This document shows positions 1-36,328 of a stretch of 64,000 nt of DNA, piece by piece. A program made the position numbers and the translations under genes. The notes beneath the pieces were generated by a model. It was not told the origin of the DNA and did not search any database. It worked only from the letters and a program-made list of their open reading frames with translations. Position 1 is the first letter of the stretch. The number at the start of each line of letters is the position of its first letter. Source of the DNA: Asparagopsis taxiformis (lineage: Eukaryota; Rhodophyta; Florideophyceae; Bonnemaisoniales; Bonnemaisoniaceae); the NCBI GenBank assembly GCA_030407315.1, contig JALQPE010000215.1, positions 1 through 64,000 on the forward strand, in the 5' to 3' direction.

Positions 1-372
1 AACTACGGTGTTGGAATGAAAAAAGACAGTAAATTTACTGTCTGAGACAGTAAAAATTACTGTCTGGCCAAGACAGTGCGCGGAGGACAGTAAAATTTAC
101 TGTCTGGAAATTTCAGAATACTGCTGCAGCAGTAAACTGGCACGAAATCTGGACAGTACCAAAAAAAACAGTAAAATTTACTGTCCAGAACAGTAAATTT
201 TACTGTCTGGAAGTGTTGCCGCCAGACAGTATGTGCAGACAGTACATTTACTGTCTGAGGCAGTACATTGTATTGTATTACTGCACTGTCTGGGGAAATC
301 TGTAGACAGTAGTGTAGATAGCAAATTGTATTGTCTGCGGGTAGTACCGTGCATTGGGACAACACTGTCTGG
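1..372. repeat. Left terminal inverted repeat and subterminal ACTGTC array of E1
   Basis: The terminal 13 bases (first base mutated) are followed by about 15 copies of GACAGT/ACTGTC in both orientations, many as short palindromes such as ACAGTAAATTTACTGT. The same block recurs at 44904-45276. Clustered subterminal repeats of this kind are the expected transposase or accessory-protein binding region of CACTA elements. The next 500 bases (373-902) hold no convincing gene. Confidence 0.85.
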
Positions 373-902
373 TGGAGTGGACTTAGAGGAAAATATGGAG
401 CATAGTGTTAGTGTGAAGGTAAATATTGGAATGGTGTGTGGAATACGACTATAGTAATTGTGATGGTGCTTTACAGATAGTTGGGTGCGGGGAAGCTAGA
501 TGCTGAATAGACGTTGTAGAAAGAAAGATAGGGAAGATTGAACATATCTCGTTTGTCTCACCGTAAGGAGAGAAAGTACAGAGTAGACTATATTATGTTG
601 AGTTTAGCATTTCAAATTATACCTATCTATCTTTGCATTGAAAGTGTCGAGTAGGAGACGTCAGTCTGGTAGCGAGGTGTGGTATTCACAGGACGTGGGT
701 GGTGCAAAGGAAGAATACGCACCATCCACCACTAAATTATGAAAAATAACCGTTACGGAGCACGAGAAGCATTATTATTATGTAGAGTAGAACAGGATGG
801 ATGCATCCACTGGAATGATATTTGCTACAACACTGCTGTACTAAGCGTGACACCTTCCTTCAAAGCACTTCCCTTTTAGCAAACTCCAATTGCAAGGTCA
901 AC

Positions 903-2306
903 ATGAATCCCGAAACCTCCGTAAGCATCGCTGCATTTTCCGAAATAACGCGTGAGGGCTTTTCGAACATCACTGCAGAGCTGAAAGCCCTGAGTGATAA
1001 AATGGATGCCGTCGAGAAGAGCACCATTCAATTACGCGAGACTCTCGGAAATGTCGCCAAGACTGTCTCCATGCTAAACACCGATATGCAGGAGGTCAAG
1101 AGCATCGTCGATGGGCTTCTGAGCCAGGGACAAGGACATCCGAAGAAGATCGCCTGAGAAGGACAGGGAACGTCTCCGCATTGCGCAGGATGCGGAGAAA
1201 TCGTTCACGTTCGAAATGGTGTGTGCTGTGCTGTGTGCTGTTGTTCCAACGTACACGAAGGCAATGGTGGATAAGAGGGATAGGCATTTCAACGGATGCC
1301 AGCTAATCAATACGCTGATGTTCGCCAGGCAGAGCAATGAGCGAAAGGATGTGTTCAATAGGACGCTTGCCGGCCGGAACCACATTGAATTGCGCTGTGC
1401 AAGTTGTGACCTCTTTAATCAAGAATACGTGTCAAAACAATTCTTTCAGAGAGGGAGGAGACCGTTCCAGCTCCAATGGAACGTCGGAAGGTATCGAACG
1501 GTGGAGAGGGCGCGGGGGTATGTGACTACCGGGACCATTGAGGAGACAATTCGCGGAACGGACTCTGCTCGCATGGATGGAATGCATGGGACGTCCGAGG
1601 CAAGTGATGGGGCCGCTCGAAAGCAGAAGCGAAGAAAGGTTGGTGACAATGGGCCGTTGCACAGAAAGGAGGTAGGCATCACTGTGACGAAATCGGCACT
1701 CACGGCAGTGACCGGTTTATGAACAAGTCCAGAGATCATGTGCGCGAAACCGTTCATCCGAGATCTTGGATTCGTTCTATACAGTGGGTTTCAAGGTTCA
1801 GTCCGCATGGAGCATCATTTGCACGACGGTGGGCTGGACATTGAGTCAGTTCCAAGTCTGTACTCGGCGCAGAGGAAAATGAATGCAGCGGCGAGCGCGC
1901 AGCAATGGATGACAAGAATATGAAGATTCTTCGCGACTTCATTGCGTGCGAAAAGAAATGGTATTCAAAGTCGAGTACGAAGAAGTTCAAATAATTGGAG
2001 AACCGGACAAGAGGTTTGTGACTAGGAGGATCAATTTAGTAGAGGTTGCACTGAACTTTGCAGTCGCCTACACGCAATGTTCTGATAAGAAACATGTTCC
2101 TGCGACGTTCAGAATACTCCTTGCAATTCATCTACATACTTGCATACGGGTTCCGAACGATTTTGAAATTTCAAAGTGGAGCAGAGGTGGGAGGAGCGCA
2201 AATCCGGGAAATCAATGAAGCAGTGAAACTGCTTCTTCCCGGGGAGCGGGTGAGTAGTCGTTTTATGAATGAGGAGGTTTTGACTATATCGCGCGTGATA
2301 GAATGA
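903..2306 (+). pseudogene. Decayed copy of the coiled-coil transposon gene found intact at 32834-34507
   Basis: The ORF fragments 903-1157, 1216-1722 and 1946-2218 lie in order on the plus strand in different frames. The first begins MNPETSVSIAAF and is a heptad-like coiled coil, as is the start of the 557-residue protein at 32834. The second carries a basic KQKRRK patch where the intact protein has SKRRRL. The third contains KVEYEEVQIIGEPD...TRR, which aligns with QVTYIVQVSGDID...TRV of the intact protein. The order and relative position of these matches make homology likely although identity is low. Several frameshifts and stops separate the pieces, so this copy is unlikely to make the full protein. 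Function is unknown; the neighbour on the right is the convergent Tudor-like gene, as at 34 kb. Confidence 0.5.
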
Positions 2307-2707
2307 AAACTGAATGTAGACGATGGGGGGGACTCAGTGCTGGAGGAGAGCTTCAGGTCTATGGAAGAGGACGGAGGAGATGAAGAATATGTGAAGGTAT
2401 TCGTCGATGATGAAATCGAGAATGAAGGGGAGTAGTATCGGATGAAACCGGTTTCGGTATAGTAGACGAAGAATGAAGAAATAAAATTTCTGTTGAGTGA
2501 ATTTTGTAATAGATGGAAGTAGATAGATACGAGACATCAGGAAACCAGTCAGACGATAGTGTCAAGTCGAAGGAATAGCGCAGAGACAGGTAGTGGAATA
2601 GTCGAAGTAGGAAGGGGCGAGGGTATCCGTCTTTACTAGAAATGATGGCCACAGGAGCTCTAGAATGAAATACCCAGGAACAGGATAACTACGGATAGTG
2701 TACTTTA

Positions 2708-4068
2708 TTATTTTTGCTCAGGACTGCAGTTGGCAGTGGGAAGAGAGCGAGGGTGGGTATTGTCTGAATCCGCATTGAAGCCAAGACGAGAGATAGCCTC
2801 ATAGCCAATGTCTTCAAGCTCCTGGCATGTAGTAGTACCACTGAAAATACAGCAAGGTAAGCGTAGATGTAGTGTACCAAACGTCTCTGCGGTTGATAGA
2901 GGCTGGAAAGTGCTGTAACAAGCTCGGCGCTGAATACGTCTCCACAGTAACGAAAACGTTGCTCCATAGGTAACAGTAGCCTTATCACGTAGGTGGAAAG
3001 AGTCCACGATGCTAGACTGTGATAGTTGGCTAAGACATAGGGGATGTAAAAATGTATTGTTGACGTGGTCAAACTCGTAGGAGTCTCTGCAAAGAACTGT
3101 CATACGTTGGTCTGGGCTGGACAGGACGTAAGCAGATGAGCCGACGAGAAATGCGGAAGAAGGAGCATCATGAGAGCAATCAACGTCGACTAGATTTCCT
3201 AAAATTCGGACAATCGATGAGCTGCCTCCATCGCGTTCCGCCCTGCTCTTCACCAATATTTTCTGGAACCCGTGTTGCGAGGTACCTATGGAGTCACATA
3301 GTGCCTGAAAGGTGGGGAAAATGATGGAAAGATCCGACTCATTTCCAGAGGGAAAGGTGATGTCCTCAAAGGACGGCTGGAAGAGAACGTCACGATTCTC
3401 TTTCGCCTTGCATTGAATGGCAATAGTGCGGAATTGAGCAAGGGAGCAGTCGCCTGTACTCTGATTTCTTCTTGCGATGTTTGTCGCATTCCCCTGGAGT
3501 GCTCGGATTTTGTCATCCGGAGGGAGAGGGGCTTGTCTGTGTACACACCAAGCTTCTGAAACAGAATGCTACATACAGTCAGAGCAGAGGAGGTCATGGA
3601 ACTGTTGGAATCGAATGGAGGGGGAAGAGGATGTTTGGCAGCTGACTCCAGCTTTTCCAATCTTGCCAGCATTTCTGCTATGGTCTTCTTCATTTGATCC
3701 GCAGTGCAATCTTGAAGGATGCCGCGGTGGCGGTGGCGAGTGTGGTCAATGCCGTAGTCCGGGTCTCTCTCTGCTGGGGATGGAGGTGAGTCCATACTGC
3801 GAAGCTCACCACTTCGCCACGGGAGAACCCTTCCGGAATCCTTGTCGACGAGCTCGTTACGATCTGAAATCTTGACTTGAGAAAGGGTAGAGTCGAAACC
3901 ATATTCAGCTTTGTATTCGAGCAATGCATGGAGGAATGGGTCTGTTTCAGTCTTGACCTGAGTAATTTCCTTGACGATTGCAGACCACCACACAATTTTT
4001 CGTTTCCTCCCAAACGGCCGAAGTTCCCATTGAACTTCTATAACGTCGTTTGGAGCGAGAGGAAGCAT
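2708..4068 (-). pseudogene. Frameshifted homologue of the Tudor/Agenet-like protein (intact copy at 34634-36328)
   Basis: The ATG at 4068 opens MLPLAPNDVIEVQW and continues to a WW pair (KIVWWSAIVKEI). This parallels EIDVWFQVGDDAIWWKATVVEM in the 564-residue protein at 34634-36328. Such D-x-V-x-W...WW-A-V patterns occur in Tudor and Agenet modules, which bind modified histone tails. A second part (2708-3256, another frame) contains GSSSIVRILGNLVDVDCS and VGSSAYVLSS, aligning with ARPCALRLFGTILCS and IGSSSFCIAG of the intact protein. The two parts are therefore one gene broken by a frameshift near 3430-3480. It converges on the decayed coiled-coil gene. The domain call is weak because only short motifs are visible. 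Confidence 0.5.
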
Positions 4069-4581
4069 GTTGGGATAGCTATGGAATAGAATTGTTGTAT
4101 TAGTGAAAGCCTAACCGTTACCTTCTGCTAAAGAGTAGTATATACTAGGAGGATTGGAAAGGTCGAGAAGAGATGTTTAGGTGGTGTAGAAATAGAATGG
4201 ACAATTGACAAAATTGACACGTCAGTGTGGATGATGTCTGCCATGAACTGATTGCAGCATAAAATTTGATGTGAATAATCGTTCTAGAAGTGAATGTCGG
4301 ATGCATACGATTGGACTACAAAGATACGTTTAGAGATGTTACGGGGCCCAATAAATTGCATGGAAAAATATTTTGAGTATTACTTTAGTATTACATTGAT
4401 TATTGAGCTAACAGTCGATGTAGTTATCTTGTAAAGGTTCGGACAGGGGTGGAAAGGAAACAGCCACCGAAGTGCTACCACTCGCTGACACTTTGTTTTA
4501 AACAACCAACTTCTGCTTTGCGCCACCCTGGTCAAGCAGCAACCAACTATCCCTTTCTTAAAAACTCTACCTTTGTTCGCC
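4069..4581. promoter_or_regulatory. Shared upstream region between two divergent genes
   Basis: About 510 bases separate the ATG of the Tudor-like gene (4068, minus) from the ATG of the methyltransferase fusion (4582, plus). No ORF, RNA gene or transposon repeat is evident. By position it should contain both promoters. A pyrimidine-rich stretch with CTTTGTTCGCC precedes the ATG at 4582. No defined promoter element was recognised. Confidence 0.3.
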
Positions 4582-7500
4582 ATGGAAGGAACGTTCCACA
4601 ATCACGGTGAAAAGCACGACGGATGGGTGTTCATCGACCCCAATCAAGTCAGCAAATTCGTATCGATTCGCGATGTTGATGCAAGTCATGTGGAAGCGCT
4701 CATGGAGAGCATTCGCAACAGCGGTTATGACACAGCTCATCCCGTGACTGGCAGGTTTCGAGAAGGCGTTCTGGAGATATTGGATGGAGCGCACCGCTGC
4801 ATGGCAATTGTACGTGGAATGGAGAAGGGCGTCTTTCCTCCTGGCGTTACGATTCCTATGCGAGAAGAGTCTATCGTGGCGGACACCAACAGCAGTACTG
4901 CTGTTGTGCTGGACCGTGTGAGAGCGACGACATCCAACGACATTGCAGGCCTGCAAAGGCGCATGATGTTTGTTGAGTATCTGATGATCGCCGTTGATCT
5001 CAGAGACGAGTACTGGGTCCAAAACGGAAAGGACAAGTACGCTCATATTTCGTCTGTGAGGATGGCTGATGTGTTGGGCTGGATCAAATCCTGCGATCCA
5101 AGCGGCCAAATTGCTTCAAGCCTGAGTGGTAAACCGCAGTACAGCTCATGCATGTCTATCCTGGCTGTGCTTCGGCCGTATCACCGAGCAGAAGATTCGA
5201 GTTCGATTGATTTGCGTCTGTGGCAAATGTTTTGTCATGCATGGGGACTCAATGCAGAGATGGGTGATTCTCCGAGGATGGTTGAGTTTCCGAAACAGGT
5301 GGGGGTGACTAGTTCTCGTGCCGTCGAAATGTTTGGCAAGACACCCCGCGGAGAATTGTCCTCTCCACTGAACCGCGAACTGCTTTCGAGCAGGTACTTT
5401 CTGGACCAGGCGGTTACATGGCATGCAATCGATGCAACATCCAGTGCGCAAGCCAACCAGCTTGGATTTGTTGTCGACCGTGTGTGTTAGCTGCGTGGGA
5501 TACCGGGGCAAGAGTGTTGGGGTATGAGGATGTTGAATCGATGTGCTGGCCGTTCATGGTATTCGATCCTGCGAGCCTTTGCTTCAGGTCACTCCCGAAT
5601 CGGTCTGATGGCTGTGCGGTCGAGGAGCATCGGAAAAACCTGACCATTGTCCCGAAAACTGTAGACAGTGAAAACGGGTTCTGTGCCGACCTTCCAGTGG
5701 CTGTGGATGCAAGGCTGCGATCATTGACAAGCGCCTTCCTGCTGTCGATACGCCAATGTGTCACTGAGGTGAATGTGTTCGCCGAGCGTGGTCAGCTGAT
5801 GCAGAGACTTCGAGCCTTGCTTTTCGACACTCCTGACAAGTTCGGCTTGAACTCGTTCATGCGAGCCAAGTTGAACACGTCTCATGCCCTGGATGGTCAG
5901 AGGAGGCTGAAGGCTTGGTTATTGCGAACCCGAGAGCAACGAAAGCTTCCTCTGACCATGGATGAGTTGCACAGTCTTGAGGATACGCCCGAGCCTGGCA
6001 TCCTTGAAGGTGCACCTGCGCAGATGGAAATATCCGCAGCAGTGCCAAACAATGGCAGCGAGGATATAGAAGAGGATAGTCTGGAGCCACAGAGGAAGAA
6101 GGCTAGGCTGGAGCGCGGTGGTGGAGAGGACGATAATGCGGCGGTTGCTAGCGAAACAGCAACAAGAGAAGGTGCGGCCGAGGATGACGCTATGGAGGTT
6201 GACACTGTATCGCCTACAGAAGCACCGCTCGTTGACGTCGGAAAGGAAACCAAGCCAGAATATGTCACCAAGCTGGAAGCTGTGATGGGGCGTTACATTC
6301 ACACTGTGAATTGTGACGCCACTGATGTAGCCAAAGAGGTGGAGGACAAAATTAGTTTCCTGGAAGATGGCGTGTTGGAGGACAGTGTTCAGCTTGTGCT
6401 CACTGATCCTCCATTCAACACGAGGCGGGAAGGCGGCAGAGAAAACTCGGAGTACGATATTCTGGAGCCGGAAGAGTTGGCGAGTGTTGCGTGTGAAATA
6501 GTTCGAGTTCTTCGGCCTGGCGGCCATGCTCTGATCTATTCCAGCGTGCGCCAACTCGTGGCATGGATGGATGCAATCAGAAATGCCGAGCCTGGCAAGA
6601 TGATTGTGGACAGTGTTCCAGTCGTGCTATCTCGCCGACCACACAGCTTTACGTCCAATCCATCGACGAAAACGTGCACACTGCATAATATGCACGATTT
6701 CGTTATCCATGCGTATAAGCGGGGGAAGGGTATGGCTGCGTACGATATGGTGGATTACAGGTTGCACAATCCGGACATATCGAGGCACCCTGGGTTCACC
6801 AACGCGATTGACAACGTTCCGAGGTTGTCGGCTGGTGAAGCTCAATACGATGGGCAGAACAACCGACTGCGCCATGAGCAGAAGGCGTTGACCACTCTTC
6901 GTGAGCTTCTGGAACGATTTTCGAAGCAGAACGATATCGTGATGGATTTCTTCTCGGGAACATACAGCACAGCCATAGCGTGTATGACGTTGAGGGATGG
7001 TACGTATCGTCGGTTCATTGGGTGTGAGAAGGAAAAAAGGTGCCACGATGCATCGCAGGAGTGGATACTGCATGCTTTCGTCAGTGAGGTGAAAGCCGGG
7101 CGATATGGGGGGATCTTGCAGCGTGAGGTGGAGAGTATTCTTGGGGACGAGTCGGTACCGGTCACAGGAAAAGCTCCAAGGCTTCGTCAGAAGCACATCT
7201 CAGATGCACCAGAAGGTTTACCTGCTGTGACAGCATTGCCGAACCATCTGCTTGTGTTCGTTGCGTCAATGAAGAAGGACGGGTCTATGCTTCACAGATT
7301 GAGCGGGGTGCCTATGGACCAGTGGCCGGCCGAGGACATGCACTCGTTTTGGAGCATAGACCCGGACGCGATTCTGGCTGCCGATGCCGCATTCTACGGT
7401 GTCTATGTTTCGCAATCGGAGGTAAGAGGTGGTGGGTTTGGCGTATTCGCGGCGAAGAAACTGAAGAAGGGGACGGTCATTGGCTGGTACAACGGGACGA

Positions 7501-7901
7501 TTTTCTATGCGAAGATTCGAGACTCGGAACCGCAGAGATCAGTGATGTACGGCCCGGAAGGATTTGGGTGCACAGGAGAGAGGTTCCAGGACTACAACAT
7601 GGAATTGGAAACCACGTACATAGGGAGGGGTGCACCTGTTCGGAAGGTTTGGCTCGTTCCAGCGGTCTATAATTGTACCAGCTACCTCAATGATTGTCGG
7701 GTCATTGACGGAACGGAGAAAGCGACCGAGGTGAGTCGAACACAGTCAGCCGAGTTTCGACAAGGCGATGCCATAGACAAACCGGACTTTGCTTCAAATA
7801 TCAAGAATCCCCATGCTGTCAAGGTCGTTCTGACCAGAGACGTTGAAGCTGATGAGGAGATATTTGCCGACTATGGTAGAAAATATTGGCCAGCTAACTG
7901 A
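4582..7901 (+). CDS. ParB-like / beta-class DNA amino-methyltransferase / SET-domain fusion, one frameshift
   Basis: The start is the ATG at 4582 (context GCCATGG). The first ORF runs to 5490 and contains a ParB-like module with ILDGAHRCMAI (compare the DG-x-HR motif of ParB nuclease folds). The second ORF, in another frame, overlaps from 5418 and runs to 7901. Their junction aligns with the continuous homologue at 28242-31715, so they are one gene with a frameshift near 5480-5490. The second part has a basic QRKKARLE stretch near 6090, methyltransferase motif IV TDPPF (6402-6416), a late motif I DFFSGTYSTAIA near 6945 (motif IV before motif I is beta class, as in CcrM), and a C-terminal SET-like domain (GGGFGVFAA near 7430; EEIFADYG near 7870). 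Expected activity is N6-adenine or N4-cytosine methylation plus lysine methylation. The frameshift could be real or an assembly error. Confidence 0.8.
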
Positions 7902-8169: not shown

Positions 8170-8640
8170 TCACCCCATTACAGTGCGGGCCGTTTACCGG
8201 GGATGCTGACAGCAAAGTCATCGTTACGATGACTTTGCTGTAAGAAAACAAATCATTACAGCAGCCACGATTTCTTTACCGGGTAAAAAAATTGTGGCCG
8301 CTGTAATGAAACGTTTTCTTACAGCAAAGTCATCGTTACGATGACTTTGCTGTAAGAAAGCAAATCATTACAGCGGCCACAATTTTTTACCCGGTAAAAA
8401 TTCTTGCTGATTTTTTACCCGGTAAAAAATTCTTTGGCCACTGCAAGGAAACGGTTCCTTACAGCAAAGTCATCGTTACGATGACTTTGCTGTAAGAAAG
8501 CAAATCATTACAGCGGCCACAATTTTTTACCCGGTAAAGAAATCGTGGCTGCTGTAATGTTTTCTTTTCTTACAGCAAAGTCATCGTAACGATGACTTTG
8601 CTGTAAGGAACCCTGGTAAACGGCTTCGGCTGTAAGCAGC
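8170..8640. repeat. Palindrome cluster 1
   Basis: Four perfect 33-bp palindromes (arms ACAGCAAAGTCATCGT around one central base) lie at 8209-8241, 8321-8353, 8461-8493 and 8572-8604. Between them are TTTTACC-C/G-GGTAAAA palindromes inside CATTACAG...CTGTAATG inverted repeats. The cluster is bounded by GTTTACCGGGGATGC on the left and its inverted counterpart on the right, so it could fold back on itself. The rest of the 7902-9110 interval shows no convincing gene. Confidence 0.85.
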
Positions 8641-9110: not shown

Positions 9111-12100
9111 CTATCTATTGCTCCTATCGTACTTGTAATATTCGACGGTGTGGATGTGGTCCGTGAGGACGTCCTTCTCCGTCTTCAAGTAGATGTGGCC
9201 GCGCGTGGGCAGGCCATAGACTAACTTCTCGCCTGCAGGAAGATCTCCTCGGCTGAAGCCGACCCCGTAATGGTAAAGGTCACCGCGACCAACCAATACG
9301 GAATAGGGTGGCACCCAAAAGGTGAGAGGGGGAACCTTCCACATATCGGCGTCCGGATTGGCCAGGCATACATGACTATAAGGGGCAACTACTATAAGAA
9401 CCCATCGGCTCCGCTCGACATCATGAAATATGATGGAGACTTGGTAGGACTTCCAACACTATTCGTCGATACCTTGAAGTCCGTGTGCCCATCCTGGTCC
9501 GCAGCCCCATCTGCTGTAAGAAGCAGCCGCAATCCTGTCTTCGGGAAGAAGACAGGATCCTCACCCTCCATTCCCAACTTCAAGAACTCCGCACAAACAC
9601 CAAGAGCAAGCTCTGCCACCAACTTGTTCTTATACATCTCCAAATTCCCCTCCTCCAACTTGTCGCACAACTCACGCCGCGGCAGAGAGAGGCGCCCACG
9701 ACCACCATCCATGCGGTCCTTCGCATCACCCACGTTGTGGATGAACTGCCACGGCGAAGGATCGAAGCCGGGCTTTGCGAAAGCTGGCGGCTCGTCCTGT
9801 GGCTCCCTGTCGTCATCGTTAGAATCAGACTGCTGGGAGGGTTTTTCAACCTCCTCAACCAGCGGGAACTGCCTAGCGAAGTGACCGAACAACTCATGCG
9901 TCGCATTACCAGCCGTGGACGATGCCAACAGGCCTTCCATAACAATAACCCCCAAGTTTTCCAACAATGCCTTCTTCACCGCAAAGTACCTGTCCACCAC
10001 CGTATCCTCAGCACCCGGCGATGCAGCTGCCTGGAATGCTGCCGCCCTCATTTCCGCCCGAACCGTCTCCACCGTCGTACTTTCCATATAGTACTTCATC
10101 CGGCTGCCAGACGCAATTGCGCTGGGGAGAACGGCGGCCACATTCTCATCGACGATACTGTCGGGAATGGGATTCTCCTGGGCGTCGTCGAACTGGAGAA
10201 CCGGCTCCCGAGAGCGACCTCGGGAAGCCGACTTGGATTTCTTTGACGACGACTTTGATGAAGTCTCACCGAGCCTTCTCTTTTTGGTAGAAGGCTCGGG
10301 CGTCGCAGAAGGCGCTTCCAAGTTACGCTTCCCGAGGATGGAGTTTTCACCCGCATCCTCGGGGGCGCTCTCCAGCTCGACGACCTCCACAGCACCACCC
10401 GCCGTTCCACCACGACCGGAACGACTCGCTTGCAGGCGGGTACTCCTTCTGGGCATCACTTTCCTCCCAGAAGTTTCCACTCCGGGCGGTGCAGAATCAC
10501 TGACTTCAATGACATCTTCGTCAGGATCTGCACCGCCCTTCGCACTGCTGCCCTCGACCACATTCTCGGGAGTAGGGCCCTCCGTCGAAATCCTCGCAAC
10601 CGTCTTCTGTCCAACCCCACCGGATGGTGAAGGGACGAAACTGTCATCGCTGGAGCTTCCCGAACTGCTAGCAGATGCAGAACGGGAAGCTTCGACAGCG
10701 GGGGCCGGAGCAGCAGGGTGCTGCTCGGCAGCCGGAGTCGCAGGCTCAGGCTGCGAAGCCGGTGAGACCTGCTCCTGCGCGGCTTGGACAGGACGGTTGG
10801 GGGTACCAGTCCCGGCGTGGGAAACTGGACCAGAGCGTTCGCTGCCATCCTGGGGACCACGCGCAGTCGGCTTGACCGGGGTCACCGCAGGGGAGGATGC
10901 CGACACGGCAGGGGTAGAGACAGGAACAGGGGCAACCTCGGAATCGCTGGAAGATTCCAGTTGAGGTGGTGGGGGCAAAGGAATGGAGGATGAAGGGATG
11001 GGCAAGGAATTGGAAGAGGAAGGGATGGGGGCATCATCACCACATGTGGCTGGGAGCGCAGCATGTGGGATGTCTGGGTACATCGCGTGAAAGCGTTTCC
11101 GCATAATCATGTCGCGGTACCCAGTGACGCGCAGGAGCATTTTCCTGGCGTCCTTCCCGAAGACAGACTTCTTACGGGGAAAAATGTTCTCCGACTTGTA
11201 ACCATCGGGGGGGCCTTCCTTGGGACGGAAGTCTGCCCAGCACCCCTTCTTGGGGACCATCTGAGCAAGAACTTCGACAACGCGCGAGCGAATGTCGAAG
11301 CTCTTGCTCGGGTCACCCACGCTGGGAATTGAGCCATCCAGCATCCTCAACACATCCGACACGTTCCAGTACTCGGCCACCTCCTTCACGTACCCGAAGA
11401 TTTCCAACAAACCAGCAATCCATTCCTGCCCAATGGTACCAACCGAGTACGGTTTCAGCCCGGCCGACCGACGGCTACAAGTGTAGCGCGCCGTCATCTC
11501 CAGGATGAAACACTTCTGTACATCCGGAGCACTCCTGAACGACCCATTGAACAACAAGTTCACCGTACACCCAGCCAGATCCTCTGTGGAAGAAAACTGA
11601 ACGAACTCCGGCCTGTTCGGGATGCTCGACCAGTATTTGAAAGCAGGGCTTTCAATGGTCTTGAACCCTCGCGCGATCGAGACGTAGCGCATGAGCTGTC
11701 TCGGACGAATCCAGCTCAGCGCTTTCCGTTCTTTAATGTATTGAACGGTCGGCTCGATCTTCTTCTTTCCCAGGCGGTGGATATTGATGAACTCCATCAC
11801 AGAGCACACATTGTCAGCAACTGTTACCTCGCTGACATTGTGGGTGTGGAAGTTCATCAGCCGTGAAAGCGGGAGTACTTCTTCGGAGCAGAAGACATCC
11901 CGGCCAAGCCGAGTCGGTGGGAGGAGAAAGTCGACTGGAATAGTTCCAAAGCGACGGTAGATGTCAGACTTGACAAACTCCTCCCACTCTGGACTGTCCT
12001 TCGCAGGAGCAGGTCCAGCCGACTCGAGAATGGCCTTCAACGCGGTCACTCGGTGAGATCCATCGACGTATTGCAGTCGTACTTTGCATTGGAATCAATC

Positions 12101-12738
12101 ACCTCGCAGACGGACACGCGTGAAGCAATCACGGAAAATCCCTGAGTGAGAAACGTTTTCTTCAACTCATCAACGCGATGCGGCCTGACCACCCTGGACA
12201 CGACTGCCGGAGGAGAAACATCCAGAGGGGAAATGAAGACTGGAATGTTTCGGCAGCTCTCCGGACTTATGTCGTAGTCCACATCCACCGGGATGGGCAC
12301 TGTGCCAGGGTAGGCCAGCCTGGTGCTGCGGAGAGGCTTGTTCGGTACGATGTCACGAGCGTTGTGATCATCGACCTTCTCCGCATCCTCTGCCAAGTCG
12401 CTGCCGGACGCGATGATCATGTCCGGAGCAGGCGAGCTAGGCAGAGGAGCACCAGATCCCTCGACGGCTGGCGCCGCTTCGGCAGATTGAGCCGGAAGCG
12501 GAGTTGCGGGAACGCCAGCGTCGATTGTCGGGACAACCGCGGGATCGGAAGCGGAAGGGGGGGAGGGGACGGGCTTAGGTGCTGGGCTGAGCTGGGTCAG
12601 CGCTGCAGCAGCTTCGCAAACGTCCATGGGGACAGGGGGGGCCAGAGAAGGAGAGGGAGAAGGAGTGGGAGAATCGTTGTCACGGCGGCTGGCAGAGCGC
12701 ACCTGGCGGTCGAAAGCGTTGGGGGATTGTTGAGCCAT
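9111..12738 (-). CDS. ParB-like / 2OG-Fe(II) dioxygenase fusion #1, two frameshifts
   Basis: The ATG is at 12738 (context GCAATGG). The N-terminal part runs to 12046 and includes SRVVRPHRVDELKKTF. The ParB-like VDGSHR motif lies at about 12048-12070 in the next frame, so a single-base frameshift cuts the motif region. The long middle ORF has a helical section (ADNVCSVMEF, AFKYWSSIP), then a Ser/Pro/Glu-rich disordered linker with basic KSSSKKSKSASRGR, then the dioxygenase domain: the HTD iron triad pair at about 9479-9487, distal H at 9270-9272 (LYHYGVGF) and the candidate 2OG-binding R at 9201-9203. A second single-base frameshift near 9391 separates HTD from the distal H. At that spot the E3 copy (54980-55000) retains the extra base. 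HxD...H...R is the Fe(II)/2OG dioxygenase signature; TET/JBP and AlkB families of this fold oxidise DNA bases. The substrate here is unknown. Confidence 0.75.
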
Positions 12739-24157: not shown

Positions 24158-24680
24158 ATATCAGGACACTACTTTTACTGTCTCCAGGTGCTGCCCAGGG
24201 CAGCACGAAATACTGTCTCCACTGTCTACAGGTGCTGCCCAGGGCAGCACGAAACAGTACTGTCTACAGGTACTGCCCAGGACAGTGAAAATCACTGTCT
24301 CCAGGTACTGCCCAGGACAGTGCACCGTGTTGGTTCCATCTATTGTCCCAGGCAGCGTATTTCACTATCCGGCCATGTTGCCTTGGCCAATACAAAACAC
24401 TATCCGCCAACACTGCCCAGTACAGTAAATTACATCACATCCAACTATTGAATAAATCATTAATTTTTACTGTCTCCATTCACTGCCTCAGACAGTACTG
24501 TGAGACAGTGTTTTTTACTGTCTGCAGACAGTGTTCCGTACTGTCTGCCAGACAGTGCAAATCACTGTCTCCAAGTGTGGCATTAATTTTCATTTGCCGC
24601 ATAGTGATTTTTACTGTCTCAGACAGTAAAAATCACTGTCTCGCAGTACTGTCTGAGGCCCCCTTTTCAACACCGTAGTG
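24158..24680. repeat. Right terminal inverted repeat and subterminal array of E1
   Basis: About four 35-bp tandem units built on GGTGCTGCCCAGGGCAGCAC or GGTACTGCCCAGGACAGT (24180-24335) are followed by many ACTGTC/GACAGT motifs and the terminal CAACACCGTAGTG at 24668-24680. Unit number varies between copies: four here, nine in E3 and seven in copy B. Confidence 0.85.
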
Positions 24681-25126
24681 CAACGTTTCAACATTGCACC
24701 GGATCGTGAGACTCCGCCCCCTCCTCCCGGAGCATCTGGCGATGCAGTGCTTGCCACTGCGGCCAGTCAAGGCGCAAAAGATGTGGGGAAGGAGAGCGAG
24801 AAAGCGGCAGAGAGCGTTCCTGCTCCTGCCCCTGTGGCATCAGCCACTCCTCCGAAGTCACCATCACAGGTGACTCGGCAGGCTCGCTCTCCGACCCAAT
24901 TCGGGGAGAATATCATGGAACCTCTCCCCGTTCCCCTTCCCTCACAACCCCTTCCTGAGGACGAAATCAATCCGACGGACATTTCTCCTCCTGACTCCCA
25001 AGCCAAGCCGGACTCAACAGCCCGCGCCCCTTCCCCCTCGAAGCCCAACTCTCCTCCCCCTTCCCCTTCCAAACCCAACTCTCCTCCCCTTCCCCCTCAC
25101 AACCCGACTCACCCCCCCGCTCCCCC
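24681..25126 (+). other. Pro-rich open frame upstream of the Zn/dioxygenase gene, probably its displaced N-terminus
   Basis: An open frame with no start of its own begins right at the E1 terminus (QRFNIAPDRETPPPPPG) and runs into Ser/Pro-rich repeats (SPSKPNSPP). It then conflicts in frame with the gene starting at ATG 25127. The composition continues smoothly across the frame change near the C-runs at 25085-25120. The E1 end may thus have cut the 5' part of a longer protein, with a C-run indel as a second change. It may alternatively be ordinary 5' leader. Confidence 0.4.
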
Positions 25127-28241: not shown

Positions 28242-31200
28242 ATGGCGCAGCCACAACCCCGGCACGGGCTTGTCGAAACGTACAGCGAAGATGGGCCGAT
28301 GCATCCATCTGACAAGTACGGAAACGGAACCATTCTATGGGTTGATCCCGCTCGCGTTGTTTCAATTCCTGCTATCGCAGGGGCTAGCACCCCAGCCTCC
28401 GATGTCACATCCGTAGTGCATCTGGATTTCGAACGTCTCTATCTGTACGGTAGCATTGCGGACAATGGTGACGTAACCTTGGTGGGAGGCATGGACGTGT
28501 GCGAGGAGGTGTGGTCGCGCCCCCGACGGAACACATCGAGATATTTACTTCGCATGAGCTACGAATCTATTACTACCAAACCACATACGCTTGCCTCTAT
28601 TCTCTTTCATCTCCTGGAGAGGGAAAGGATTATTCCGTTCTACGAAAGTGTAGCAATAGTCGCTCACATGCGAGACTGTTGGCATGAAGCTGAGAAGAAA
28701 GAGGATCATGTGCCCCTTGCAGAACGTTCGCTCACAGCGTTTCGAAGGGCTGTGAGCAGTATGTACAAGTTTGACCTGCCAGCGAATGCTTCAATCGTTC
28801 TGGATAAATGGTTCTCGTATGCCTACCATCGTCACACTTTTAACATTGTGCAAGCAGTCCGAAACTTCACCATTTCTGCTGGTGAAGATGGTAGTGTAGA
28901 TATAGACACACGGGTATGGGATCTATTCCTCACGAGCTGTGGGTTGCTGGATTTATCCGTATCCTTCTTTATTCCCGTGTTTGTCCATGAGCGTGATGAG
29001 GATTCAGCAGAGGATCCACTCAAAAACTCTCAGAGTCCTGGACCACCACTTCCAGTTCAGAAAGAGTTCTACACCGAGCATAACTTCTCCCAGTCCGCGA
29101 TTGGTCGAGATGCCTTCTCAAGACAATCACTAGCATGCCAATTCTTCGTTTCACAGACCCAGGAGCGCGCTTCGCATCAAGATAGCTGGACAACTCCGAG
29201 ACTTACCACAACTTTCGAGAGGGTTGTATTTCTCATGGTATTGATACAAATGGACCGAGACTGGAAGTTGCAGGCAGAATCCCGGCCACGCTCACGTACA
29301 AGAACGAGGTCTTCGAATAGACCCACGCCGCTTCTCAAGAAGGATAGTCCGTGGACTGCCCAGCGTCTTGGATATGGTATTCATGTGATTCTGAAGTCAT
29401 GGGATGTATTGGCAAAGTCGCTAGGGGCTACCAATACCGAGGAGCTCTTGCAACCGTACCTTCTGTACGACCAGAGAGTATTCACGTACCACGTCCTGGA
29501 CTCGGAAAATAGGGGCTTCGCACCGCTTCGAGAGCTGAAGACTTTGTTGCACGGCAGAGGAGCTGTTCGAAGAGTGCAGCACTCGGCAAGCATCTCGAGT
29601 GCGGCTGTCCATCGTACGCTGCTGCAAGATGCTCAGATGCGCCTCTGCGCAACGTCCTTCTGGGAGCACATAATGACGATCTGTCGGCACAAAGAATTGT
29701 TCGACCAAACCGTTTCTTCACCGCGAGCAATACCTTTCCTACAGGGCTTCCAGGTGTCGACTGGTTCCCCGGATGCTGGGAGGTTTACGACTATTCGGGC
29801 TCTGGGTATGGTTGAAAGGCAACTCACGGCATTCAGCCTCACAGAAGAGCCACAATCAACGCCCGACCCTAATGAGGAGCTGTTCGGAGACACTGAGAGA
29901 ACAGCTTCTGCAGTACGGGATTCTCCGCCCGGCGGGAACGGAACGAGCCCGAATGCTAAACGCAGACGACTAGATGAAAGCCCTTCTGGTGCAGGAAGCT
30001 CGAGCAGGAATAGCGGTAACAGCGGTACCGCCGAAGCGGCCAGAGCTGATATAAAATCCATGCGTGCAGAAGATGAAGTGTTGATTCCTCCAGAAATGGA
30101 CAACATGAAAGGATCTGTCCTGCATACTTTCAACTGCAGCTTCAGAGACCTTTTGAAGAACTATGACGCTGTTGACAATCCTCGAAAGCCGCAAATCCGG
30201 GAAGGTGCTCAGTTGGTACTCACTGACCCGCCGTACAATACTAGGCGTATGTCTGGCAGAGGAAACTCTGGTTACGATGTCCTCCGTCAGGAAGAAATCG
30301 AAGACACGGTAGCTGAAATTTCCAAGGTGACGCGCAAGGGTGGTCATGTTCTCATATTCACATCTGCTGCTCTGTTCTACAATTGGGTATACGAGCTTCG
30401 CAAAGTGAAATACTCTACGGGTAGTCCTATGTTCGCGGTTGATTCGCAGCCTATCGTCTGTACTCGGAGCCCCACCCATTTTACTTCGCCTCCATATAGG
30501 ATTACAACCAGTTTGTTAAATATGGTCGAGCTGGTTGTACATGCTACGAAGCTGGGTAAGGGTAAAGAAGGCTGGGGGATGGTGAACTACCGAAATGCAG
30601 GATACATCCCTTCTAGGTTCAAGGCTTGGACAAATGTCATCGACAACATCCCGCGCATCACAGCATCGGAGACAGTGAAATATTTGGACAAGGACAAGAA
30701 AAAGGTTACGTTGCGCCCCGAGCAGAAGACCGTAGCTCTCATGCAAGAGCTCATTGGACGTTTCTCAAACCAGGGAGACTTGGTCGTGGACATGTTTGCT
30801 GGCACTTTCTCTACTGCAGTTGCATGCCTTACTATGCACCACGGTCAGTACAGGAGGTTTGTGGGGTGTGAGAAGTTCACGGACTGCTTTGAACTATCCC
30901 TTCCTAGAGTTAATCTTGCATTTCTGCAGCAGGTCTCCATTGGGAACTTTGCTCAACAGTCCACGCCCGCCCTGCAGCAGCTGGCCACTTCTCAACTCGG
31001 AACTTCCGATGACGATTCCCACTCGAAGAACCCCTCCAGTTTACCAAGTTCGACACAACTTCCACCCCACCTCATCAGCTTTCTGACCGCCATTTGGTGC
31101 ATCCCAGACCAGCACAATGACTTGATAGACCTTCCTATTCACAAATGGCCACAATCACTGCTGGGCTTGTTGTCCACCATGGATAGTAAAACCCTGCTAT

Positions 31201-31715
31201 CAATTGATGCAATGGCACACAATGTATACGTTGCAACTTCAACTATACCTGCAGCTGGTGATGGACTCTTCGCAAGAGTAGATATTGATCCAGGAGATAT
31301 CGTCGGGTACTATTTTGGGGCAGTGGTTTACAAGGATCTCTACCAAGCAAAACTGAAGACGTTTGGTACGGGTCCGACTTCGTTCTCGATTGAGCGCTTC
31401 CAGAAGTACGCAGTTCAAATCAAGGACCCAAATATCACCTGCTTGCTTCCGTCTACGTCTGGCCGCCCCATCTTCATTGTTCCATTCGAGTATTGCGCTG
31501 CTTCGAAAATCAACGACCCAACGTTCGTGGATCCAGCAGAGGGAACCGATCGCCCGTCGCGAACTGCTAATGTTAGTTTCTCCTCTCCTGTACAAGAACT
31601 CATCAGTGAGAGCTCTGTGTCTACCTACCAAGTTGTATGTGTTACTGCTAACGAGGCTATCTCAGCTGGATCCGAGCTGTTTATCGAATACGGTCATGAT
31701 TACTTCACTGTCTAG
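28242..31715 (+). CDS. ParB-derived / beta-class DNA amino-methyltransferase / SET-domain fusion, intact
   Basis: The start is the ATG at 28242 (GAAATGG), giving 1157 residues. The N-terminus parallels the ParB-like module of the 4582 gene (WVDPARV versus FIDPNQV), but DGAHR is replaced by VGGMDV, so the ParB signature is lost. A long helical middle follows, then a disordered stretch with AKRRRLDE. The methyltransferase has motif IV D662-PPY665 in LVLTDPPYNTR, a QKT-x-ALMQELI helix and late motif I D850-MFAGTFSTAVA, the beta-class order. The C-terminus (about 990-1157) is SET-like: AAGDGLFAR, KINDPTF and ELFIEYGHDYF. Expected reactions are exocyclic amino methylation of A or C in DNA, and lysine methylation on a histone or other protein. 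It is the undamaged homologue of the frameshifted 4582-7901 gene. Confidence 0.85.
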   Translation: MAQPQPRHGLVETYSEDGPMHPSDKYGNGTILWVDPARVVSIPAIAGASTPASDVTSVVHLDFERLYLYGSIADNGDVTLVGGMDVCEEVWSRPRRNTSRYLLRMSYESITTKPHTLASILFHLLERERIIPFYESVAIVAHMRDCWHEAEKKEDHVPLAERSLTAFRRAVSSMYKFDLPANASIVLDKWFSYAYHRHTFNIVQAVRNFTISAGEDGSVDIDTRVWDLFLTSCGLLDLSVSFFIPVFVHERDEDSAEDPLKNSQSPGPPLPVQKEFYTEHNFSQSAIGRDAFSRQSLACQFFVSQTQERASHQDSWTTPRLTTTFERVVFLMVLIQMDRDWKLQAESRPRSRTRTRSSNRPTPLLKKDSPWTAQRLGYGIHVILKSWDVLAKSLGATNTEELLQPYLLYDQRVFTYHVLDSENRGFAPLRELKTLLHGRGAVRRVQHSASISSAAVHRTLLQDAQMRLCATSFWEHIMTICRHKELFDQTVSSPRAIPFLQGFQVSTGSPDAGRFTTIRALGMVERQLTAFSLTEEPQSTPDPNEELFGDTERTASAVRDSPPGGNGTSPNAKRRRLDESPSGAGSSSRNSGNSGTAEAARADIKSMRAEDEVLIPPEMDNMKGSVLHTFNCSFRDLLKNYDAVDNPRKPQIREGAQLVLTDPPYNTRRMSGRGNSGYDVLRQEEIEDTVAEISKVTRKGGHVLIFTSAALFYNWVYELRKVKYSTGSPMFAVDSQPIVCTRSPTHFTSPPYRITTSLLNMVELVVHATKLGKGKEGWGMVNYRNAGYIPSRFKAWTNVIDNIPRITASETVKYLDKDKKKVTLRPEQKTVALMQELIGRFSNQGDLVVDMFAGTFSTAVACLTMHHGQYRRFVGCEKFTDCFELSLPRVNLAFLQQVSIGNFAQQSTPALQQLATSQLGTSDDDSHSKNPSSLPSSTQLPPHLISFLTAIWCIPDQHNDLIDLPIHKWPQSLLGLLSTMDSKTLLSIDAMAHNVYVATSTIPAAGDGLFARVDIDPGDIVGYYFGAVVYKDLYQAKLKTFGTGPTSFSIERFQKYAVQIKDPNITCLLPSTSGRPIFIVPFEYCAASKINDPTFVDPAEGTDRPSRTANVSFSSPVQELISESSVSTYQVVCVTANEAISAGSELFIEYGHDYFTV

Positions 31716-32833: not shown

Positions 32834-34507
32834 ATGAGAGATGATTTATCTTTGACTAGGTTTGCAAAGTTCGAAGAACGGTTCGCATCCCTCGAACAGT
32901 ACATGCGCGATTCACTTTCGTCTATTCAATTGGAGCTGGCGTGTATTCGATACATGGCCTCCGCTGTTGCCGGAACAAACACTGTCCCTTCAGTTGTTCT
33001 GGATGAGAGATCAAGAAAAGCAGGTCAAATTGCCACGCTGGTGTCTTCTCTGTTCAACAACAGGCAGGTGACATCTCGATTCGTCGCTTTCAGAACTGTT
33101 GCAGAGCTTGTTAAAACCTTTGTTGACACCAATTTGCTCAAGAATTGTAATTCGAGGTCTGCAACATCACCACAGGTGGATTCCTGCACAACGTTGCTTC
33201 TTGCTGCCCTGTCGTTTTCGCAGACTTCAAGTTCAAATTCTGAGGTAAGGCAATCTAAGAGATCTCTTATCGGAACGGCAGTAGGGAAACGACATGTGTT
33301 CTTAAAACGCTCTATTATCGGAACTGCGTTTATTTCAATGGCAAATGACAGAATTGTGCGATGGAAGGACTTGACGAGCAAGAATGCTGGGGTCCTCGAT
33401 CCTGGGGAGGAGGAGGACTTGAACAGCAATACTCTATCTCGAGACTATGCACTACGCAATGCTACAGTAGTGCCCATCGAAAAGCCGTCTTGGCTGCACA
33501 TTTCCCAACGAGCTCTTTTCCATGCCATGGATATTTCGATGCCCACGGAGGCAGAACGAAACGTGGAACAGTCTACGCATTTGCAGGTTACTCTTTCAAA
33601 GCGTCGCCGACTGTCTGGTTCGAAAGAAGCACGCCGTACTGGTACATCCTCTTCATCTTCTTCCGCTGTATCCAACCTTTCTCCGTCTGACTTACAGTCT
33701 ATTCCGATTATTACCTCTGCACTACGGCAGCTTACACAGTTCTTCAACACTTCCCGGAAACAGATGAAAATGGAATTGGTCAAACAAGCATTCTTCCTCA
33801 TCCACCGAGATATGAAGGCAGGTGTGGATGTTTCTCCTGCCCATGCTGTTTCCACAACAGAAATGTGTCCACGTGACTCTATTCCGACAACTTCGAGAGC
33901 TTACGGAACAGGAGAAGAAGCTCTCGAAGTGTACTCAAAAAATGATTCCATCTTCTCAAATTTCATTCTGAGCCGTCCTGAGCTTCACATTCAGGTTACT
34001 TACATAGTTCAGGTGAGCGGTGATATCGATGGTGAAAACATTGCGAGTACGCGAGTGGAGAAGTTGGCTGCCTGTTCATTCTCCTTTCTTACTCTAGCTA
34101 TGATATTGTTATGCAGTTTTTGCCAATGTACACAACTGGAGATGCTCTGTCATGAACCTCATGCTATTCAAGCATGTTATAAGATTGCAATATGCCTCCA
34201 AGGTTTATTTAACGAAGCCCTGAAACAACAGCCTACATCTCATTTTGGGAAGGATGGATTCCCCTTGCGCGTTACATGGGGACATCTTGAGCTCCGGGAC
34301 TACCTCATGGGAGGTGACTGCCTCACGGGGATCATTAGAAAGAAGAGAAACCTAACAGCACAAGAATACGAGTCTGTCCGTTTCGTTTCAGGCTTCAGAC
34401 ATACTGAGCGCTCAGAAGATAACCCAGCAAACAGACCAGTTTCCAATCATGATTGTGTACCTCTCGAGGAGGATGATGAACTTGGTATTTCTTTAATTGG
34501 CATGTAG
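32834..34507 (+). CDS. Coiled-coil transposon protein of unknown function
   Basis: The ATG at 32834 gives 557 residues. I do not recognise a catalytic domain. The N-terminus (about 5-45) is a heptad-like helix (FEERFASLEQYMRDSLSSIQLEL), a likely oligomerisation coil. A basic SKRRRLSGSKEARR with a following Ser run lies mid-protein and could be a nuclear signal. The C-terminal half is helical with clustered Cys (CSFCQCTQLEMLC). A decayed homologue lies at 903-2306. In both places the gene points toward the Tudor-like gene, so the pair moves together. A DNA-binding accessory role (as TNPA-type proteins have in CACTA elements) would fit its place, but there is no direct evidence for it. Confidence 0.6.
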   Translation: MRDDLSLTRFAKFEERFASLEQYMRDSLSSIQLELACIRYMASAVAGTNTVPSVVLDERSRKAGQIATLVSSLFNNRQVTSRFVAFRTVAELVKTFVDTNLLKNCNSRSATSPQVDSCTTLLLAALSFSQTSSSNSEVRQSKRSLIGTAVGKRHVFLKRSIIGTAFISMANDRIVRWKDLTSKNAGVLDPGEEEDLNSNTLSRDYALRNATVVPIEKPSWLHISQRALFHAMDISMPTEAERNVEQSTHLQVTLSKRRRLSGSKEARRTGTSSSSSSAVSNLSPSDLQSIPIITSALRQLTQFFNTSRKQMKMELVKQAFFLIHRDMKAGVDVSPAHAVSTTEMCPRDSIPTTSRAYGTGEEALEVYSKNDSIFSNFILSRPELHIQVTYIVQVSGDIDGENIASTRVEKLAACSFSFLTLAMILLCSFCQCTQLEMLCHEPHAIQACYKIAICLQGLFNEALKQQPTSHFGKDGFPLRVTWGHLELRDYLMGGDCLTGIIRKKRNLTAQEYESVRFVSGFRHTERSEDNPANRPVSNHDCVPLEEDDELGISLIGM

Positions 34508-34633
34508 AACTGTTCTAGCTGGAACACCGCCGTCTTCATGTGACTGTAGTAGTTCCCATTGCTTGCCTCTGCTCCGCAATGTATGCTTCAGAATAATTAA
34601 ACTAGTTCTTCCATGTTCATCTCACTACCTGTA

Positions 34634-36328
34634 TCATTTTATGTACTCCTCTGCCCTTTTCTCTGACACACTATACCCCACCACATCATTGACCACATCT
34701 TCCGATATTAACTTGCCTATTCTACATGGTTCTTCCACACCACGGAATATGACATACGGCATATGCACTCTCAATGTTCCCCACAACATGTCACCAGCCC
34801 TTCCTCTTTTCCTTTGCGTTGTAGGTTCCCATTCAATGCGGAAACATTTCTTTCTTTCGCTTCTCCACCCTTCTAGACTCCCGTCACCATCGAACCCCCC
34901 GTGCACGCCACATATCGAGGGACATTCCTGCAGCTCCATTCCGTTCACATATTCACCTTGGACTACAGCACTACCGTTGCGAGCCAGACACCATACGTTC
35001 GATTTAGATCCGGCAATGCAGAACGAGCTACTGCCAATTGCAACAGATGTCGACTGTGCTTCCATCGTTTCCGAGCACAATATCGTACCAAACAACCGCA
35101 GAGCACATGGCCTCGCTGTTCCGTTCATGTCACCACACTCTTCATTCTCCTCCCCTTCCGAGTTGCTTATGTTACGCCTATGAACCAGAGACTCAGTTCG
35201 CCATCTGTGCCCCAATCCTAGCAGATCCGATAGTGTGGAAAAACTGGAACACGTAATGTTCACAGCTTCTCCGCCATTTCCAGCCACTGCCGCGTGAAGC
35301 CCTGGGTACACTTTGTAATACCCCCCTCGATAGGTTTCTGCTGTTCCCTTTAGCATTTCCCGGAATAGCTCAGTGCTCAATGAGATTGGAATCTGGACAG
35401 GTCCGGTAATAGCCGTTCCACTCGTGCATGCACCGTCAATCTCACCATGTGGGTAGCCACCCCCTGGGGTTGACAAAGTGCTTCGATTAACCTGTTCCAC
35501 GACTTTCTCTACCGCACGCTGCAAGAGCATTAACAAAACCTTACCAGCCGATACTGTTGATGCACAATTTAGAACCCTTTCGTTCCAACCAAGCCGAATC
35601 TCGCTAGCATTTCCAGAAAGCATTATATTTTCTAGTGTTCTCAGCCTTGTCTCCATACCACTGTATGTTTTGACGTCAAGTGCTGATTCCACTTTTGGCT
35701 TCTTCCTCTGCGGTGATATCGCTTCAGATTCTCCATCTGATTGGTCATGACATTCTACTCTCTCCGCTTCGTAATCCACAGCCTCTCCATTGCTCGTTCG
35801 CCACGGTGTCGGGGGCTGGCCCCCCGACATCAACTTATTTCCGAGCAGAAACTTTACGTTTTCGTAGGCGACACAAGGATAATTCATTTCAGGAATAGCA
35901 TCGTATAACAATCTGCCTTCTGCCACTGCCATTTCATTATGACTCGGCTTCACAGCGTTCGAATGCCGCCACGTAGTGACTTCCAAGACTGATATCTCCT
36001 TTTCCTCCCTCGTCAACCTCACGACTGCATCATCCACATCCTTTCTATTCTGCTCCACCACACCGGGCGTGTACATTCCATCTCCTCTGTCTACGTCGAT
36101 GCGGTCTCCCACTGACGGCTTACCACTGCAGACAGGATACTGCTCAGGAAGTTTCATTTCCACAACCGTAGCCTTCCACCATATTGCGTCATCGCCAACT
36201 TGGAACCATACGTCTATTTCCGTTCCGACACATGGGAGTGCATCTACGGCAGCTGCCCGCTCACGCTCACGACCAGCTTTCGCTTTTTCGCTCTGTCGCC
36301 TAATTCGCAATGATTCACGCCTCGTCAT
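34634..36328 (-). CDS. Tudor/Agenet-like protein, possible chromatin reader
   Basis: The ATG at 36328 opens MTRRESLRIRRQSEKAKAGR, strongly basic; 564 residues. Residues about 33-120 show EIDVWF...AIWWKATVVEM then VGDRIDVDRGD...PGVVEQ and TTWRHSNAVKP, a two-part pattern that resembles tandem Tudor/Agenet repeats, which read methylated lysine or arginine. A basic SPQRKKPKVE patch is a likely nuclear signal. The C-terminal half is conserved with the decayed copy at 2708-4068 (LRLFGTILCS, IGSSSFCIAG) and unassigned. It ends 127 bases from the end of the convergent coiled-coil gene. If the Tudor call is right it could read marks set by the SET fusion; that is inference, and the domain assignment needs a profile search. 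Confidence 0.5.
   Translation of the reverse strand: MTRRESLRIRRQSEKAKAGRERERAAAVDALPCVGTEIDVWFQVGDDAIWWKATVVEMKLPEQYPVCSGKPSVGDRIDVDRGDGMYTPGVVEQNRKDVDDAVVRLTREEKEISVLEVTTWRHSNAVKPSHNEMAVAEGRLLYDAIPEMNYPCVAYENVKFLLGNKLMSGGQPPTPWRTSNGEAVDYEAERVECHDQSDGESEAISPQRKKPKVESALDVKTYSGMETRLRTLENIMLSGNASEIRLGWNERVLNCASTVSAGKVLLMLLQRAVEKVVEQVNRSTLSTPGGGYPHGEIDGACTSGTAITGPVQIPISLSTELFREMLKGTAETYRGGYYKVYPGLHAAVAGNGGEAVNITCSSFSTLSDLLGLGHRWRTESLVHRRNISNSEGEENEECGDMNGTARPCALRLFGTILCSETMEAQSTSVAIGSSSFCIAGSKSNVWCLARNGSAVVQGEYVNGMELQECPSICGVHGGFDGDGSLEGWRSERKKCFRIEWEPTTQRKRGRAGDMLWGTLRVHMPYVIFRGVEEPCRIGKLISEDVVNDVVGYSVSEKRAEEYIK

Follow-up and report, generated by a model that had tools for sequence, protein, structure and literature searches.

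Architecture and ends of the two transposon families

Positions 1–64,000 of contig JALQPE010000215.1 (C215; 136,794 bp) of the red alga Asparagopsis taxiformis, hereafter the window, hold copies of two transposon families, A and B, with traits of the EnSpm/CACTA superfamily. In keeping with a red-algal host, phycobilisome proteins (PF00502) give 13 match rows in the genome, 11 being on a single plastid-like contig, C469, that may be a contaminant. Both families carry, together with a transposase, a predicted DNA methylase fused to a SET domain, a putative ParB-type domain joined to a dioxygenase-like domain, and two accessory genes (Table 1). An earlier note, made from the sequence alone, had described positions 1–36328 as a single element of 36 kb. 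This is ruled out, and the region consists of a family A element inserted in a family B element. Element A1, delimited by self-comparison and by copies elsewhere, spans positions 1–24680, with CACTACGGTGTTG as the family terminal inverted repeat. The right part of element B1 spans 24681–37317, with its dioxygenase-like gene split by A1 and CACAGGATAA as the family terminal inverted repeat. The right end of B1 (37317) adjoins a second A copy near A position 13491, so that the B element itself sits in an A copy; a plain tandem duplication starting at 13489 was given up on this ground. The A/B junction is seen again at 63146 and the B methylase gene at C215:66570, which makes it likely, if unproven, that the stretch was duplicated later or was joined in this way in assembly.

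The CACTACGGTGTTG ends named in the earlier note withstood comparison with controls. The window contains seven matches at up to two mismatches (shuffled sequences: mean 1.17, largest 6), and the genome searched (141.5 Mb, 3,156 contigs) contains 922 + 943 exact copies of CACTACGGTGTTGR (1,865 in all) against 1 + 0 for the reversed control. A complete A copy of 24,981 bp in contig C1573 has CACTACGGTGTTG exactly at both ends and lies within a B methylase-SET gene, where its flanks match window positions 30790–30865 and 30864–31126 and define a GG target duplication. A complete B copy of about 22.1 kb (C134:1–22098) has the right end TTGCTTATCCTGTG; its contig begins at the left end of the element and differs by one base from the CACAGG of C2494. 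The B copy in C2494 has CACAGGATAA as its left and TTATCCTGTG as its right end and is flanked by a GT duplication, read without an empty site for comparison. Comparison of filled and empty sites for an A-type element nested in the second A copy gives a 2-bp duplication (AA). Clean ends and 2-bp target duplications show that both A and B have been mobile.

Both families have CAC...GTG terminal inverted repeats, a trait of EnSpm/CACTA (CMCT) elements. Subterminal repeats are also typical of EnSpm/CACTA, and in the C1573 copy of A the motif GACAGT/ACTGTC is concentrated in the terminal kilobases, with 15 occurrences in the first and 22 in the last kilobase against 0–3 per kilobase elsewhere. The target duplications of the three insertions (AA, GG and GT) are 2 bp long, within the 2–5 bp that PMC12730594 gives for the wider clade and unlike the classic 3 bp that it gives for EnSpm. 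The transposase of A, called Tnp2-like in the earlier note, has no Pfam match; what stands of that assignment is a distant similarity of 23–26% to frames of this genome that match PF02992, at three of eight loci (best E-value of 8e-8).

The nested A-type element (44904–59444) has no transposase match, and its dioxygenase is present only as degenerate pieces. It contains an extra right-type A end at 52998–53010, possibly belonging to a further nested or truncated copy, beside sequence resembling a 172-bp tandem repeat; this repeat occurs in about four copies at 49887–50584, with one more related copy at 53005–53143. Locus L036 (C134:22089–23369), at the right-hand end of the B copy in C134, holds a proline-rich open frame of 426 residues that looks, by eye, like a retrotransposon gag.

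Gene content shared by A and B

The genes of the complete A copy (C1573) and B copy (C134) were compared by pairwise blastp. The A copy encodes a coiled-coil-type protein (508 residues), the product of a gene previously called Tudor-like ('Tudor' gene; 453 residues), a ParB-methylase-SET fusion (1155 residues), two ParB-dioxygenase-like proteins (the first broken, the second of 1040 residues) and the transposase (1267 residues). The B copy encodes the transposase (1349 residues), a ParB-zinc-type-dioxygenase-like protein (1169 residues), a methylase-SET fusion (1157 residues), a coiled-coil-type protein (557 residues) and the 'Tudor' gene product (564 residues). Five gene types pair between the families at 20–31% identity, in a different gene order: the methylase-SET (29%, E-value of 4e-95), the transposase (27%, 7e-83), the dioxygenase-like domain (31%, 1e-26, with its ParB part at 26%, 5e-7), the coiled-coil-type gene (22%, 4e-9) and, weakly, the 'Tudor' gene (20%, 0.037). 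The consistent presence of the set was borne out, in that neither of the two complete copies lacks the genes, one A dioxygenase gene being broken there. It is thus well supported that the elements carry, as a set, predicted writers of methylation on DNA and on protein.

The fusion of a DNA methyltransferase to SET claimed earlier was confirmed by profile search: PF01555 and PF00856 occur in one reading frame twice (5313–7901 and 28104–31715), above the curated Pfam cut-offs in both families, while the NCBIfam matches of these two frames all fall below their cut-offs. The PF01555 match, with DPPY/F ahead of an FxGT motif, is that of beta-class amino DNA methylases. Among 46 related proteins, which include the window's own protein (P0001) and one annotated in Pyropia yezoensis (P0045), a DPP[YF] motif is found by pattern in all 46 and an FxGT-type motif in 30; precomputed annotation lists SET for 15 of the 46. 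A DPPY/F motif points to the N6 of adenine more than to the N4 of cytosine, and for this reason adenine N6 is the most likely target of the predicted methylase, with N4-cytosine also possible. The usual SET motif is NHxC; here it reads as ND-type where it is found, so SET catalysis is not assured.

Many copies of the fusion gene are intact. For A there are at least 53 matches in the genome, a lower bound from 53 scored of 3,852 first-look candidates; 43 of these 53 have an open frame of 1186 residues and all 53 are free of stops within the match, the window's own copy being disrupted upstream of it. For B there are at least 39 match rows, and 32 of the 39 listed are stop-free. The ratio of non-synonymous to synonymous substitution rates (dN/dS), estimated by a simple counting method for a single pair, the B gene and its 79.5% identical relative in C1824, is 0.156 for the whole gene (1,154 codons), 0.036 for the methylase, 0.056 for SET, 0.18–0.26 for the N-terminal parts and 0.19 for the linker. 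In this one pair the methylase and SET domains are under strong purifying selection. PF01555 domains extend beyond A and B: the best 150 scored of 2,605 first-look candidates, hence at least 150 genome-wide, fall in many length and score classes, and so there are probably further methylase families in the genome.

The ParB-like fusion proposed in the earlier note gained support from profiles and fold comparison. The frame at 4489–5487 matches the phage ParB-like family phrog_1033 (E-value of 0.0028) and, better, phrog_4272 (2.8e-6), a family without function. The motif DGxHR is present in the A frames at 4489, 9395 and 14267, and DGLHR in the B dioxygenase-like protein. The N-terminus of the 14264–17500 protein gave Foldseek matches to sulfiredoxin (PDB entry 1xw4, E-value of 9.9e-4) and ParB-N (PDB entry 5k5d, 4.6e-3), the query being the better-predicted stretch of a poor model, with a predicted local distance difference test score (pLDDT) of about 46–77 there. 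Motif and modelled fold together agree with a predicted ParB/Srx fold.

In the dioxygenase-like domain, H216-x-D218, S253-H254, H288 and R307 are invariant in five of five aligned rows, two of which, those of the window and P0047, represent one protein. From this HxD / SH / H / R pattern and weak matches to ectoine hydroxylase (E-values of 0.8 and 0.26), our guess is an enzyme resembling phytanoyl-CoA hydroxylase. A search with the whole ParB-dioxygenase protein returned only itself at an E-value of up to 0.001 among the best 8000 candidates, and the domain alone returned three matches, one of them itself; in the relatives P0048 and P0049 a ParB domain is likewise joined to a dioxygenase-like domain. 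P0044, a methylase relative, and P0049 list equal longest contigs (7072) and may be neighbours in another organism. The fusion of a zinc module to a dioxygenase, previously listed as a gene type of its own, was discarded: 24995–27100 is the truncated 3' portion of a longer ParB-fused gene that the A insertion interrupts.

Table 1. Features of the A and B elements in the window
Feature	Position	Strand	Remarks
Left terminal inverted repeat of A1	1..13	+	AACTACGGTGTTG, one mismatch; contig begins here
Right terminal inverted repeat of A1	24668..24680	-	
Right terminal repeat of B1, adjoining second A copy	37304..37317	-	TTGCTTATCCTGTG
Second A copy, right part	37318..63146 (37318-44903 plus 59445-63146)	+	~99% identity to matching part of A1
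Nested A-type element	44904..59444	.	Carries 12 palindromes; target duplication AA against empty site in A1
ParB - N6/N4 DNA methylase - SET fusion gene of A (predicted)	4489..7901	+	Divided between two frames in the window
DNA methylase domain PF01555 of A	6387..7058	+	E 1.4e-16; DPPF ... FSGT, motif order IV then I
SET domain PF00856 of A	7434..7877	+	E 2.5e-6; 28.3 bits, cut-off 22.4
DNA methylase - SET gene of B1 (predicted)	28242..31715	+	Methylase 30210-30875, E 9.3e-14; SET 31257-31694, E 1.7e-5, 25.6 bits, cut-off 22.4
ParB-dioxygenase-like gene 1 of A	9111..12891	-	Broken frame
ParB-dioxygenase-like gene 2 of A	14264..17386	-	1040 aa from ATG; HxD..H..R domain 14267-15268
3' part of ParB - zinc-type - dioxygenase-like gene of B1, split by A1	24681..27100	+	1169 aa, uninterrupted in C134
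Transposase of A, distantly EnSpm/Tnp2-like	18577..22410	-	1267 aa in C1573 copy
Coiled-coil-type accessory gene of A	907..2433 (approximate)	+	Broken in the window; C1573 open reading frame local 983-2509, offset 76
Coiled-coil-type accessory gene of B1	32834..34507	+	
A counterpart of 'Tudor-like' gene	2708..4110	-	Two frames in the window; without Tudor profile support
'Tudor-like' gene of B1	34634..36361	-	Without profile support
Palindrome TTACAGCAAAGTCATCGTWACGATGACTTTGCTGTAA, 4 copies	8207..8606	.	Between convergent genes
37-bp palindrome, 5 copies	12972..14012	.	Between same-direction genes
37-bp palindrome, 2 copies	18307..18455	.	Between same-direction genes

Intergenic palindromes and a possible self-marking module

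In the window, a near-perfect palindrome of 37 bp, TTACAGCAAAGTCATCGTWACGATGACTTTGCTGTAA, is found 27 times at up to three mismatches (11 in A1, four in the second A copy and 12 in the nested element); it is absent from all 100 shuffled sequences. All 11 palindromes of the complete A copy in C1573 lie outside genes, with a manually chosen start for the broken gene. Family A therefore has two separate repeat sets, the intergenic palindromes and the terminal GACAGT/ACTGTC. Genome-wide, the exact palindrome is found 3,358 + 3,355 times (6,713), counted over the whole genome and not assigned to A-type elements, and its reversed control 0 times. All 20 of the A loci, the window being one, contain it and none of 10 other loci does (eight with other transposases and two of B); the A loci are closely related copies of a single family and the ten others are short (3.4 or 6.6 kb), so this is an association rather than independent replication, and a weak test. 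Core conservation over 61 sites is 98%, compared with 58–65% for the flanks, which are unaligned across repeat units. The complete B copy in C134 has six long palindromes outside its five genes, for example TAAAATTTGGTAATTTTTGGGCACAAAAATTACCAAATTTTA, with sequences other than those of A. A second, shorter palindrome of the TTTTTTACCCGGTAAAAAA type stands beside the 37-bp palindrome at 13903–13946 and 18230–18279.

ParB proteins bind palindromic sites. The putative ParB domains on the A methylase-SET and on the dioxygenase-like proteins of both families, together with unlike palindromes in the gene gaps of the two families, suggest the palindromes as the address of the ParB-fused proteins. The proposal of self-recognition in the earlier note thereby gains support from the distinct intergenic palindromes of A and B. 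That A and B are two related giant autonomous CACTA/EnSpm-type families with a conserved ParB-guided self-marking module, for which the palindromes are candidate sites, has in our judgement an even chance of being right. We advance more tentatively, as a possibility that is open to real doubt, that the thousands of identical palindromes act as a partition-like address, to which ParB domains steer a methylase-SET writer and an opposing dioxygenase eraser on the element's own copies, with a new address re-evolved in each family.

We infer a mechanism in which the ParB-type domains would bind the element's own palindromes and so bring the methylase-SET and dioxygenase-like proteins to its copies. 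There DNA would be marked by the methylase and a chromatin protein methylated by SET; the dioxygenase-like protein would remove or alter a mark. The likely benefit would be that copies stay expressed and mobile despite host silencing. The machinery would act in trans on related copies, and palindrome-bearing derivatives could share the benefit; the nested element, for one, has 12 palindromes beside its degenerate dioxygenase pieces.

Several observations weigh against this self-marking reading. The B methylase-SET has no DGxHR motif within its first 400 residues, and neither, by pattern, do 38 of the 46 methylase relatives. The dioxygenase identity is a motif call and the double-stranded beta-helix fold is putative: the domain has no Pfam match at an E-value of up to 10 in four of four domain sequences, and AlphaFold models of the protein and of its domain are poor (mean pLDDT of 39 and 35). 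A profile of the domain searched against the PDB places five chains of the zinc-finger protein Kaiso first (best E-value of 7e-4) and ectoine hydroxylase behind them (0.26); the Kaiso match was judged fortuitous, since it falls on a zinc finger and the query does not retain the cysteines of that finger. The link to TET/JBP dioxygenases drawn in the earlier note likewise fell away, as none of the four domain sequences matched such a family in Pfam at that threshold, although similarity beyond the reach of HMMER is possible. The 'Tudor' gene lost its name-giving domain, since no Pfam family matches the B protein at an E-value of up to 0.1 or the A protein at up to 1, and a sub-threshold Tudor match (E-value of 0.19) falls on the coiled-coil-type protein of A instead. 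Of the idea that the element writes, oxidises and reads its own marks, the set of methylation writers stands, oxidation is suggested by a motif, and the Tudor reader drops out. The single pair behind the dN/dS estimates, the unassigned palindrome count and the relatedness of the A loci count on the same side, as does an alternative role for the palindromes as terminators or hairpins.

In that alternative, the palindromes would be bidirectional transcription terminators or sources of small-RNA hairpins in the gene gaps, unrelated to ParB. Their intergenic position fits this, including that between convergent genes at 8207–8606 with a T-rich palindrome nearby, but they also lie between same-direction genes (12972–14012 and 18307–18455) in 2–6 copies per locus examined, conservation of the 37-bp core far exceeds the needs of a stem, and the palindromes of B are unrelated; we consider this role rather unlikely.

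Adenine methylation licenses or times the excision of some bacterial transposons after replication. By analogy, the accessory proteins could write a mark that is used by the transposase, licensing or timing excision, rather than one that counters silencing. The methylase is of the bacterial-type beta class, and in both families the set accompanies the transposase, as this account would have it; the palindromes, however, are internal and lie between genes, and the ends have a repeat of their own (GACAGT/ACTGTC), which leaves it unlikely.

That the cargo consists of passenger genes or relics that were captured from bacteria or viruses and play no part in the life of the element could draw on the occurrence of such methylases in phages and on the broken genes (A dioxygenase gene 1 in both the window and C1573, and the window's A methylase), but is made unlikely, to the point of being barely credible, by a set kept in two families despite divergence (transposases 27% identical) and reordering, by the many intact copies and by the low dN/dS of the enzyme domains in the one pair (0.036–0.056).

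Relation to known systems

The self-marking reading has partial precedents. PMC12477816 describes ParB-methylase proteins on algal transposons (Sola1-1_Ec32 of Ectocarpus, with green and red algal cases cited). These elements resemble A and B in having a ParB-like domain and an N4/N6 methylase on a giant DNA transposon, for which binding and marking of the element's own sequence is proposed, so the core idea advanced here was anticipated. They differ in their Sola1 transposase, and in the passages on them neither a SET fusion nor a dioxygenase partner nor palindromes are named; the words 'SET domain' and 'dioxygenase' do not occur there. The same paper points to giant EnSpm elements with accessory genes in the red alga Bostrychia moritziana (Petroll et al. 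2025), which by its account share superfamily, size class and host group with A and B and may be their relatives. Given these algal elements, the earlier statement that no described CACTA element has the full gene set may be too strong.

According to PMC12730594 (Kojima 2025), fungal DNA transposons, including EnSpm, carry TET/JBP, a putative base-modifying dioxygenase; here TET/JBP similarity was not detected and the dioxygenase-like domain is fused to ParB, and the parts of that paper concerned describe no methylase-SET. It also reports SET in HarbingerS and MuDR elements of Phytophthora, which are alike in that SET is encoded by a transposon but belong to other superfamilies, with no DNA methylase fusion stated in that passage. 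The N4CMT of bdelloid rotifers (PMC8885841) is a bacterial-type DNA methylase in a eukaryote that is discussed together with SET proteins; as treated there, the SET domains lie in separate SETDB1-type proteins. The portion of PMC12695648 covered mentions neither 'red alga' nor 'SET domain', and the literature searched, which did not cover Petroll et al. 2025, contained no methylase-SET fusion, ParB-oxygenase or palindromes of this kind on a transposon.

Published work thus already includes ParB-methylases on algal transposons, giant EnSpm elements of red algae and the idea of self-marking. If the reading given here is true, A and B would add a eukaryotic mobile element that sets up an addressed chromatin state of its own, coupling a bacterial-type methylase to SET in one protein: a sequence-addressed, self-owned epigenetic state with both writer and eraser. 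This would bear on whether DNA methylation other than 5-methylcytosine is real and used in red algae. With candidate target sites now named, the self-marking suggestion in print for ParB-methylase proteins becomes sharply testable.

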